Assembly (NCBI GenBank): GCA_001781335.1
Contig: MFLL01000032.1
Coordinates: 1-47,188, forward strand
Length of the DNA stretch: 47,188 nt
Origin: Candidatus Kaiserbacteria bacterium RIFCSPHIGHO2_02_FULL_55_25
GTDB lineage: Bacteria > Patescibacteriota > Minisyncoccia > Phycocordibacterales > UBA2100
Direction of reading: 5' to 3'
Position 1 is the first letter of the stretch. Every line of letters begins with the position of its first letter. Shown in pieces: positions 11,457-21,255 of the stretch. A program made the translations under genes and the position numbers. A model generated the notes under the pieces. It was not told the origin of the DNA. It searched no databases and saw only the letters and a program-made list of their open reading frames with translations.

Positions 11457-11482
11457 ATAAGGTCAAGACCTTGGAACCAGAT

Positions 11483-12038
11483 CCTTGACGACATCGTATG
11501 TCGTTATATTCCCGATACCCGCATCCAAGCCCTCATCGCCGAGGTCGTCCTTTCTTACAACTCACGGTCGTATGATATAAGAAAGTATGTCCAAGAGGTG
11601 TCACCTCTTGAACTACTGAAGGGATTGCCGCTCGGAAATCTGACATCACAATTACTCGTCAATATCTATATGAACGAGTTTGACCAGTTTGTGAAGCACC
11701 AGCTCAAAGCGAAATATTACGTCCGTTATGCGGACGACTTCATCTTCCTCTCGGCATCAAGGCCCGGCCTTGAAGAAGTGCTGCCTGACATCGAGCATTT
11801 CTTGAGATTGAGGTTAAACCTCAATCTGCATCCGGATAAAGTTTCAATCCAAACATTCGCTTCAGGCGTTGATTTCCTCGGCTGGGTGCATTTCCCCGAC
11901 CACCCTGTGCTGCGCAGTGCGACGAAGCGGAGAATGCTGCGGAATCTTGCCGATGATACGTTCGATGCGCGCGTGGAGTCGTATCGGGGATTGCTGGGGC
12001 ATGGGAATGCGCACACGCTTGCCACATCGCTACGCTAA
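11483..12038 (+). pseudogene. 5'-truncated DGR-type reverse transcriptase
   Basis: LDDIVCRYIPDTRIQALIAEVV...GLPLGNLTSQLLVNIYMNEFDQFVKH...YVRYADDFIFLSASRP...; N-terminal half absent; homologous to 20128-21255. Confidence 0.85.
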
Positions 12039-17628: not shown

Positions 17629-18669
17629 ATTCGAACGCTCACTTTCTTCTCTTTGAACGCGCCCTCGGGCGCTTTTTGCGTTTGAGAGCCTTCGCATACA
17701 TTTCATCGGGAGTGCGGAATCCCAACACATCCATGAAGCGCCGATTCGCTTTCGCTTCGAGCTGTCCGAATGTATAGCGTGAAAATCTGGAAATATCGGA
17801 ATTCTTTGGAATGTAGCGACGAAGCCACTTGTTGAAGTTCTCAACGCTCGGCTTCTCCCACGGAGAACGGGGATGACAGAAGTAGATCTTCACGTCGAGC
17901 TTTTTCTCCAGTCGTTTGTGCTCGAGAAAGAGGATGTCGTTGTCGAACGTGATCGTTTTGATCTCGGGAAATCGTTTCTTCATGCGCACGAGCGCGCGCT
18001 CCACATTCCGCACGGAAACGGGAAGTATCATCTCCAAAAACACCTTCCGGATGTTCCGGTCGATGAGAACGAGTCCCAACCCTTTCCCGCTTTTGCCCGA
18101 GACAATGAAGTCACCCTCCATGTGACCGAGCCCCTTTCTTTCGTTGACACGCTTGGGTCGTTTGGAGATCATGCGTTTGCCGTCGAGGATGGCTCGCGGA
18201 GTTTTTCTGCGATGTTTGCTTTTGAATATCTTCGCGCGATGCGATTCGATGCGCCGTCCGTACACGCTTTTGATATACCGCTTGATGGCGGCGGGAGAGA
18301 CGTACGCGATGGTTTTCTCAACGGCACGCAGCCTTCCCGCGATCGCATCGGGAGACTGATCGTCGAGTAAATTGGCTTCGACGAACGTTCGCAGATCGGG
18401 ATCGAGCGCGATCTTCTTGCCAGCTCTCCGACCCTTTCGAGCTCGAATGTATGAAAGGTATTTTGCGTATGTGGCATCGTATATTCTGCGAGCACGCTTT
18501 TTCTGGAGCTCGTACCAAATGACGCTCTTTGGACGTTTCAGCGTTGTTGCGATCTCGGCGATCGAATACTTTCGGTCCCGGAGAATCTCGATCTCGCTGC
18601 GATCCGCATTGCTAATCCGCCTCCACCTCTTTCTTTTTTCATTACGAAACTATATCGCGCCGTTCGAAT
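17629..18669 (-). mobile_element. IS30-like insertion sequence (approximate ends)
   Basis: transposase flanked by inverted attcgaacg (17629-17637) / cgttcgaat (18661-18669); exact termini not determined. Confidence 0.6.
17639..18642 (-). CDS. IS30-like transposase (start codon uncertain; possible frameshift at A-run)
   Basis: ISNADRSEIEILRDRKYSIAEIATTLKRPKSVIWYEL HTH; GHMEGDFIVSGKSGKGLGLVLIDR; FCHPRSPWEKPSVENFNKWLRRYIPKNSDIS. Confidence 0.85.
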
Positions 18670-18741
18670 CTCAATGAGCGGGCGCAATTCCGCATTTCGG
18701 CGGACTCAGAACAGTGCATTCACACCAAAGGAGATGACGCC

Positions 18742-19386
18742 ATGGCAAGGCCCATGTCTGCATCAGGAATGACCGACGGGCAGATCAAGGATTTGCTCAA
18801 GAAAGTCGCCGAAGCCGCCCGCAAGCATCGCAAGGATGTCTCGCAAAAGGCCGCGGGACAAGCGCTTGGCGTGCCGAACATCGGCACGATGATGTTCGCG
18901 GTCTTCCGGCAACTCGCCGATGCGATGAGCAATCTCATCGTCCATCGCGTGAAAGTCGATCGCACCCGCACGCCCCAACAGGCGCTCGATGCGTGTGGCC
19001 GCAAGCAATACGTCAACAGTGAAGTCGTCGCGACTATGCCGGCCGGCAAAGGCAAAAACGTCAGGCTTACATACTTCAAGCCAGACAAATCGGCCTACGA
19101 CGATAACGGCTTACTGAAGCCGGGCGCGCTCGACGAGGAATACAAGAAACACGGCCTCAAAGCCGATCCGCAAGCGCAGATCGACGACAACGCCGCGAAT
19201 CCCAACTTCGCCGATAAGACGCCCAACGCTTGTCAGTGGACCGACAAGAACGGCAATCACTGCTACGCCACGTTCTACCGCTGGAATGGCGGGCCGGTCG
19301 TGTTCGTCAGCCGCTTCGGGCTCGACTGGGACGGCCGCTGGTCTTTCGCTGGCGTCCCGGACGGATCTTCGGCTTCGGCCGTTTGA
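18742..19386 (+). CDS. DGR target (variable) protein
   Basis: C-terminal NHCYATFYRWNGGPVVFVSRFGLDWDGRWSFAGV encoded by the VR; strong SD aaaggag before ATG. Confidence 0.85.
   Translation: MARPMSASGMTDGQIKDLLKKVAEAARKHRKDVSQKAAGQALGVPNIGTMMFAVFRQLADAMSNLIVHRVKVDRTRTPQQALDACGRKQYVNSEVVATMPAGKGKNVRLTYFKPDKSAYDDNGLLKPGALDEEYKKHGLKADPQAQIDDNAANPNFADKTPNACQWTDKNGNHCYATFYRWNGGPVVFVSRFGLDWDGRWSFAGVPDGSSASAV
19258..19359 (+). repeat. DGR variable region (VR)
   Basis: aligns to 19708-19809; differences in 19261-19359 all at template adenines. Confidence 0.95.
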
Positions 19387-19707
19387 CCCTTGTTCTGCAC
19401 TTGGTCACTTTGGCCTCTGCTCTTGTCCTCGCACTGGAAATGTCCTCGCACTTGAAACGGTGCGAGGATATCTTTTTGTTATACTAAATATGGTAGTAGG
19501 CGAATCTGCCGCAGATTACGGTTTGCGGCGGCCGAATCCGGGATTTCTCAATCCAGAGCCGCAAAGATCACGGTCGATGTGGGAGCGACTGATAACATCT
19601 CTAAAAAACGAAGATACTTCGTGCGATGCGTTAGGGCATTTGAGATGCCGAATACGATACAGCTCGGAGAGTACTCAATGGGCAGTGGAGCAGGCGACGC
19701 ATCACAC

Positions 19708-19809
19708 AACTGCTACGCCACGTTCAACCGCTGGAATGACGAGCCGAACGTGAACGTCAACCGCAACGAGAACGACTGGAACGACAACTGGTCTTTCGCT
19801 GGCGTCCCG
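19708..19809 (+). repeat. DGR template region (TR)
   Basis: tgctacgccacgttcaaccgctggaatgacgagccgaacgtgaacgtcaaccgcaacgagaacgactggaacgacaactggtctttcgctggcgtcccg. Confidence 0.95.
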
Positions 19810-19818
19810 AAACTCTCT

Positions 19819-20226
19819 TCATTTCTCACCCCGCGCCTTTGCGGGGTCGAGTTTCAGGAGCTGTCCCTGCCATCCGCCCAGCATCCTCCCGATTTCATCG
19901 ACCGGTCCCGAAAGCGCGGCATATTTCTTGTTGTCGAGCGACTTACTTTCCCAGAGGACGAGCAGCAACAGTTTCAGAGTGTCGAATTTCCGTATCGCCA
20001 TGCGCAAGTACGGTAGTTTCTCCGCTTTCGGCAAAAACGCCGCGGCGGAAATCATTTCCATCACTTCGACGAAGAGCGCGTCTATCTTTGCTCCGATAGT
20101 GTATTGGTGAATCTTCGGTAGTTTAGAATGATGTTCATGCCAGAGCAGATAAGCCGACTTAATGCGCTCAAGCACGGGCAAAATCCGCAGGGGGGGGGTA
20201 CGGCTAGGCGGATTCAATTCACTCAT
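19819..20226 (-). CDS. avd: Avd-like DGR accessory protein (four-helix bundle / 23S-IVP family-like)
   Basis: LPVLERIKSAYLLWHEHHSKLPKIHQYTIGAKIDALFVEVMEMISAAAFLPKAEKLPYLRMAIRKFDTLKLLLLVLWESKSLDNKKYAALSGPVDEIGRMLGGWQ; start codon uncertain. Confidence 0.8.
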   Translation of the reverse strand: MSELNPPSRTPPLRILPVLERIKSAYLLWHEHHSKLPKIHQYTIGAKIDALFVEVMEMISAAAFLPKAEKLPYLRMAIRKFDTLKLLLLVLWESKSLDNKKYAALSGPVDEIGRMLGGWQGQLLKLDPAKARGEK

Positions 20227-21255
20227 CCATACGAGGATATCATCTCGGTGGAAAACTTGCTCGCGGCGTGGCGGGAGTTCGTGCGTGGCAAGCGGAAGAA
20301 AGAAGATGTCCAAGAGTTCCAGTATTGTCTGATGGACAATATTATCGCACTTCACCGCGACCTTGCGGCAGAAACATACAAGCACGGGAGCTATGAGGCG
20401 TTCAAAATCAGCGACCCCAAGCCCCGCGACATCCACAAGGCGCTCGTCCGCGACCGCTTGCTTCACCACGCACTCTACCGCAAGCTCTATCCGTTCTTCG
20501 ACCGCACGTTCATAGCCGATTCGTACTCATGCCGCAAGGGAAAGGGGACGCACCGAGCCATGAACCGCTTCCGTCAGTTTGCATACAAAGTCTCCAAGAA
20601 CCACACCCGCACCTGCTGGGTACTCAAATGCGACGTCCGCAAGTTCTTCGCGAGCATCGACCACGCAGTCCTTAACGACATCGTATGTCGTTATATTCCC
20701 GACAAGCGAATCGTCGCCCTCATCACCGAAGTTGTCGGCAGTTTTCGTTCTGAACATACCCCTTGTTTATCTCATCCGACCGGACGAGATAAACAAGAGA
20801 GCCAGACACCGTTAATTGGTCTGCCGCTCGGGAATCTCACGAGCCAACTTCTCGTCAATATCTATATGAACGAGTTCGACCAGTTTGTGAAGCACATGTT
20901 GAAAGTGACATACTACGTCCGCTATGCCGATGATTTTGTATTTCTCTCCGCATCAAGACCCGACCTTGATGCGCTGTTGCCTTGCATTCGAGGATTTCTC
21001 ACCACAAGATTGCGCCTCGCACTACATCCGGACAAAGTATTCATCAAGACGTATGCATCTAGTGTCGATTTCTTGGGTTGGGTACATTTTCCCGACCATC
21101 GGGTGCTGCGTACGGCAACAAAACGGCGAATGATGCGAAATCTTGACGATGATACGTTCGATGCGCGCGTGGAGTCGTATCGGGGATTGCTGGGGCATGG
21201 GAATGCGAGGAAACTAATTACACAGGTAATTGTGGATAGGCGCTTGGGCGCTTGA
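20128..21255 (+). CDS. DGR reverse transcriptase
   Basis: IGLPLGNLTSQLLVNIYMNEFDQFVKH; catalytic YVRYADDFVFLS; WVLKCDVRKFFASIDH. True start may lie downstream of 20128. Confidence 0.93.
   Translation: MMFMPEQISRLNALKHGQNPQGGGTARRIQFTHPYEDIISVENLLAAWREFVRGKRKKEDVQEFQYCLMDNIIALHRDLAAETYKHGSYEAFKISDPKPRDIHKALVRDRLLHHALYRKLYPFFDRTFIADSYSCRKGKGTHRAMNRFRQFAYKVSKNHTRTCWVLKCDVRKFFASIDHAVLNDIVCRYIPDKRIVALITEVVGSFRSEHTPCLSHPTGRDKQESQTPLIGLPLGNLTSQLLVNIYMNEFDQFVKHMLKVTYYVRYADDFVFLSASRPDLDALLPCIRGFLTTRLRLALHPDKVFIKTYASSVDFLGWVHFPDHRVLRTATKRRMMRNLDDDTFDARVESYRGLLGHGNARKLITQVIVDRRLGA

Follow-up and report, generated by a model that had tools for sequence, protein, structure and literature searches.

How is a diversity-generating retroelement (DGR) restrained from rewriting a receptor that already works? 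The question is raised by a locus in a 47,188-nucleotide stretch of patescibacterial DNA, called the window here, which is contig C32 of an 868-kb genome that is 99% complete. A switch in the reading registers of Avd and the reverse transcriptase (RT) would, if true, be a concrete and testable answer. We consider it very probable that the activity of this DGR is gated by a simple-repeat (SSR) contingency locus. With less assurance, we also favor a broader proposal: that one repeat in the overlapping 5' ends toggles both Avd and RT, that mutator and stable cells live alongside each other by design across much of the bacterial class, and that the template is carried on an undescribed structured RNA. 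A sequence-only reading had already recognized the DGR; the antisense Avd, the proposed SSR switch, the RNA before the template, a second DGR in the genome and an RT remnant at 11.5 kb go beyond it.

A complete DGR in a cellular genome

Gapless alignment of the 99-nt variable repeat (VR, 19261-19359, + strand) with the template repeat (TR, 19711-19809, + strand) gave 17 mismatches, which in the TR-to-VR direction are A>G at 8 positions, A>T at 7 and A>C at 2. Thus, 17 of the 25 TR adenines are altered in the VR and none of the 74 non-A positions, as the sequence-only reading had counted; the probability that all 17 mismatches would fall on the 25 adenines by chance is 2e-13. The A-only match can be extended to 105 nt (19258-19362 on the VR side), and an A-only pair is also present in 78 of 96 related loci. 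No further VR for this TR was found in the window, where its second-best match agrees at only 40 of the 74 non-A positions.

The VR lies inside the open reading frame of the target gene (18742-19386, + strand, 214 aa), where it encodes the C-terminus, as the position at the 3' end had suggested. The target protein has N-terminal helices followed by a C-terminal alpha/beta domain without a database match. Searches of Pfam, NCBIfam and PHROG returned no family for the protein, which agrees with the earlier impression that its N-terminal part contains no recognized domain. High confidence in its AlphaFold model is restricted to residues ~70-190. Comparison of the model with the PDB and BFVD gave no fold match, and we do not claim a C-type-lectin fold.

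The RT (20128-21255, + strand) has the expected catalytic YADD and a GLPLGNLTSQ motif fitting the GLPLGNxTSQ pattern named before, and a Pfam profile search matched it to RVT_1 (E=6.5e-21). Between the TR and the RT lies a gene of the bAvd four-helix-bundle family (19819-20226), which runs on the - strand, antisense to the RT. It matches Pfam bAvd above the cut-off (3e-10) and PHROG 3206, 'Avd protein of DGR' (4e-16), and stays below the cut-off of the NCBIfam Avd model with 59.9 of 80 bits. What had been called an Avd-like gene is therefore a real Avd, by its bAvd and PHROG matches; its position on the minus strand had been missed. Avd is antisense to RT in all 74 related loci of a second, independent set, and the gene order in the loci that we inspected is target, leader, TR, Avd on the opposite strand, and RT.

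RT, Avd, TR and VR are all intact, so the description of a complete DGR stands. Judged by its sequence, it is of the Patescibacteria type and appears to be functional, without data on retrohoming activity. We rejected the idea of a fossil DGR, as these components are intact and the repeat tract described below is in the ON register for both Avd and RT.

The source genome, whose nearest relatives with a name belong to Candidatus Kaiserbacteria, contains a second complete DGR of identical layout with a different TR/VR pair, on contig C27. Within the window, a truncated copy of the RT 3' half (11478-12029, + strand, 78% nucleotide identity to the window RT) is apparently the remnant of another DGR; we found no second TR-like sequence or leader RNA in the window. 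The truncated copy adjoins pilM. An IS30-family transposase (17639-18690, - strand), with its reading frame broken in the 5' part, lies directly beside the DGR target. The DGR and this insertion sequence interrupt a type IV pilus gene cluster at 12.3-25 kb, with pilM, pilN and pilO upstream and pilB, a response regulator, pilT, pilC, pilin and pilD; pilN, pilO and pilD were named from gene order and our reading of the sequence. The target protein might be connected with the type IV pilus, for which there are no data. Across the class, 172 of 384 genomes contain relatives of the RT. Because only 5 relatives are on viral contigs, the element is mainly cellular.

The template repeat follows a structured RNA

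Several features around the TR make its RNA look like a transcription unit of its own, as judged from sequence patterns. A terminator-like hairpin follows the target gene (19440-19471, + strand) and occurs at the same place in 71 of 76 loci. Just downstream is an extended -10-like element, TGTTATACT (19477-19485, + strand), a candidate promoter of the TR RNA; the pattern TGnTAnnnT occurs in 52 of 76 loci, compared with 15.9 expected. Directly 5' of the TR, a predicted three-way junction, modeled as R1, spans the 117 nt from 19593 to 19709 (+ strand, 114.7 bits), and its closing stem P1 runs up to the TR boundary. Finally, a G+C-rich hairpin with a T-rich tail (19828-19847, + strand), present in 74 of 76 loci, is the candidate 3' end.

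With a tentative fourth helix counted in, 94% of the pairs in the R1 helices are standard, compared with 76% for shuffled and 30-50% for slid controls. Two-sided changes were seen in 9 of 12, 5 of 5 and 4 of 4 pairs of three helices. The R1 covariance model found one copy in 78 of 80 sources, and this leader RNA supplies a means of finding such cassettes. An Rfam search of the DGR region of the window gave no meaningful match. A pseudoknot between GAATA and TATTC, paired in only 80%, is not claimed. R1 also matched in two genomes without an RT match (G023:C8:26103-26259 and G056:C24:23-137), possibly broken or split DGRs.

A simple repeat lies in the overlapping ends of Avd and RT

The two genes are divergent and their 5' portions overlap; inside the overlap is a G9 tract (20190-20198; C9 on the Avd strand), our candidate for a phase-variation switch. 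We collected 171 non-redundant related DGR loci, and about 140 have a simple repeat at the Avd/RT junction. Most are poly-C, and the length of the G/C homopolymers ranges from 6 to 14 with a mode of 9-10 despite differing flanks. Other loci have (CT)n (L125, G053b, L143, L172 and L213) or (CA)8 (L095) at the junction. From -1500 to +1000 around the RT start, the 171 loci contain 140 long SSRs, 136 of them no more than 200 nt upstream of the RT reference start. The tract is kept in distant lineages with diverged flanks, and where a long spacer separates Avd from RT (L074, L077, L108 and L135) it remains at the Avd N-terminus.

Tracts of G9 or longer are rare in the 868-kb source genome, which has 4 in all, 2 of them at its two DGRs, and they are rare in relatives too. 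The other two (L054 C8:22257 and L055 C25:27549) are unrelated to DGRs: the first is intergenic, beside a NUDIX-like gene, and the second lies in the Gly-rich linker of a predicted surface protein. Two loci without an SSR in Avd have one inside RT at the identical position, +519. In G035c (L053 5930-5980) this is a G10 with a frameshifted RT, and in L177 it is (AG)7, which suggests from sequence that this is another place for a switch when Avd lacks an SSR. In the assemblies of L207, L210 and L222, the tract or its immediate flank contains runs of N, which may stem from masking or from tracts of mixed length.

Repeat slippage is expected to be frequent in cells without MutS. MutS_V is missing from the source genome and from 91 of 93 near-complete genomes of the class; therefore, we infer from this general knowledge that slippage is frequent here.

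The tract register joins Avd to its start codon

On the Avd strand, a conserved ATG precedes the tract and the Avd domain follows it; in frame, the tract encodes Pro-Pro-Pro. The ATG can be joined to Avd in one tract register only. The window copy, which starts at ATG 20226-20224 with the N-terminus MSELNPPSRTPPLRILPVLERIK..., is in frame through the tract, a state that we call ON. In our first set, an ATG-initiated open reading frame leads into Avd in some register in 85 of 85 SSR loci and in exactly one register in 76, compared with 46% of loci in a shuffled-spacer control. These 76 loci divide into 16 that are ON, 32 shifted one way and 28 shifted the other way. Across both sets, 33 SSR loci are ON and 108 OFF, compared with 25 ON and 1 OFF among loci without an SSR (p=1e-12); the sole exception, L168, has a short CT run. 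Two loci with an interrupted tract, L099 and L138, are in frame. The ON share among SSR loci is slightly under one third (p=0.012), and the registers are otherwise near-random. In the sequences at hand, then, loci without a repeat have the upstream Avd ATG in frame, and those with a repeat show an almost random assembled register.

The start codon itself is an informative marker, being the complement of an RT His codon, CAT. In OFF loci this codon is CAT in 83 cases and CAC in 0, compared with 597:533 over the remaining His codons in these RTs (p=1e-22). Because of this bias, we infer from the sequences that the Avd start is held by selection even though it is out of frame in assembled OFF loci, in keeping with OFF states that can be reversed. 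ON and OFF loci are alike in VR divergence (p=0.49). Consensus sequences give no direct signal of activity, and VRs as diversified in OFF loci as in ON loci imply that OFF loci are not long-dead.

Both registers thus occur among relatives in which gene and start codon are intact. One pair, L079 and L096 (80% identity, on contigs of one MAG), is OFF in both copies, so a flip does not appear in every comparison. These counts are not fully independent, as loci share ancestry, and they come from consensus assemblies only, with no reads or clonal assemblies. Homopolymer length in MAG assemblies is open to miscount. The start sites of Avd and RT are predictions, and transcription starts are unmapped.

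The same register can open the RT

Of 140 loci, 96 have an RT start of their own downstream of the tract, and 44, among them the window and C27 copies, lack one. The possible RT starts in the window register (ATG 20128, 20131 and 20137) are all upstream of the tract, and no ATG, GTG or TTG occurs from the tract to the conserved domain, which begins at 20242; in the present register the RT frame is open through the tract. Among the 44, the Avd-ON register is also the RT-ON register in 31 of 31 single-register loci, compared with 4 of 22 where the RT has its own start. In that register, the RT reading frame extends back across the tract as far as an ATG in 40 of 43 loci without a downstream start and in 14 of 92 with one (p=8e-19). 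The two copies of the source genome stand in different registers: the window copy (G9) is ON for both Avd and RT, and the C27 copy (G10) is OFF for both.

Read from these sequences, control of RT by the tract holds as a coupled effect in the 44 loci. The openness of the RT N-terminal extension may be partly incidental, since it is antisense to Avd. We rejected, as a general rule, the idea that the tract mainly controls RT, because 96 of 140 RTs have their own downstream start and, where a long stretch separates the genes, the tract is found with Avd.

A proposed switch and its alternatives

The criterion for a contingency locus, a repeat tied to the register of a gene, is met by position and reading register, on sequence grounds only and without expression data. 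At that level we regard as shown the anatomy of the cassette with its tract, the rule of register, the preservation of the start codons, the coupled registers and the RNA structure. In the mechanism that we propose, the TR would be transcribed as a separate RNA with a 5' three-way-junction domain, the TR and a terminator. RT and Avd would copy the TR with errors at A, and the resulting cDNA would take the place of the VR in the neighboring target gene. Where MutS is lacking, replication would add or drop a repeat unit and so bring the Avd domain into or out of frame with its start codon; in about one locus in three, the window's among them, the same event would act on RT as well. The cassette would flip stochastically between ON, with both proteins made, and OFF, so that a minority of cells would diversify the target while the remaining cells keep its current version. 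Reversible length change in a population, loss of retrohoming in the OFF state and the selective reason for the device are inferences. The OFF state may also be incomplete: a GTG or TTG downstream of the tract might give a shortened Avd, and some Avd could arise in OFF registers if RNA polymerase slips.

The most durable alternative, which we nevertheless consider unlikely, makes the tract a recoding site, at which RNA polymerase slippage or ribosomal frameshifting gives a fixed in-frame fraction of Avd (and RT), a low dose without a switch. Homopolymers do promote transcriptional slippage, and near-random registers in the DNA would be expected if slippage buffers them. However, the (CT)n, (CA)n and (AG)n repeats at the same places are poor substrates for RNA polymerase slippage and good ones for replication slippage, and tract lengths drift freely from 6 to 14.

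We give still less credence to an ordinary DGR whose Avd starts at a TTG or GTG downstream of the tract, with the tract as a neutral or structural spacer. Such a codon follows in frame in 52 of the 85 SSR loci, but 32 have none. Moreover, this reading does not account for an upstream ATG that is kept in OFF loci (CAT 83:CAC 0) and in frame in non-SSR loci, or for a tract retained in distant lineages whose flanks have diverged. Least credible of all is that the random registers are homopolymer miscounts in assemblies: tracts of 9-14 are error-prone and N runs occur at the tract in L207, L210 and L222, but miscounts cannot place tracts at one and the same point of the gene across about 140 loci and explain neither the dinucleotide repeats, nor the CAT bias, nor the coupled registers of two genes.

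If such a register switch is real, mutator cells should be a minority, and tract length should be measurably linked to VR diversity in the same reads. The switch would join phase variation and a DGR into one second-order device. Annotations of such genomes should treat a frameshifted Avd neither as a pseudogene nor as a sign that the DGR lacks Avd.

Comparison with known systems

DGRs in Patescibacteria are already known from the work of Roux et al. 2021 (PMC8144416). Their 'DGR clade 2', the DGRs of Patescibacteria (CPR), shares with ours the host group and targets without recognizable domains; we infer from the host group only that the window DGR belongs to this clade. In the parts of that paper accessible to us, there was no mention of the strand order, the SSR, its register or the 5' RNA, and the authors left open whether the lower turnover of cellular DGRs results from stronger control of RT activity (PMC8144416). 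Reviews treat contingency loci and DGRs as parallel, alternative solutions (PMC3521204). We found no report of SSR or phase-variation control of DGRs in the literature searched, with most subscription papers outside the reach of that search.

The window DGR resembles that of Bordetella phage BPP-1 (mtd-VR, avd, TR, brt) in its target with a C-terminal VR, its TR, Avd and RT, and its A-specific TR-to-VR changes. In that phage, a single operon holds avd, TR and brt, all in one direction, and the TR RNA has the avd coding sequence on its 5' side and a structured spacer that recruits bRT-Avd on its 3' side (PMC12875486). By comparison, Avd in the window is antisense to RT, an SSR lies in Avd and RT, and the TR has its own putative promoter and terminator with a three-way-junction RNA at the 5' end. 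Retrohoming in BPP-1 requires Avd (PMC12875486; PMC10053308).

The SSR contingency loci of Campylobacter, Helicobacter and Neisseria are G/C homopolymers or dinucleotide repeats within genes, close to the 5' end, that set those genes ON or OFF by register (PMC8355987, PMC6321876). The window tract is like them in the kind of repeat, the 5' position and the ON/OFF states set by register. Those SSRs switch mostly genes for surface structures, whereas the window SSR would switch a targeted hypermutation machine and, unlike them, a single tract would set two genes on opposite strands.
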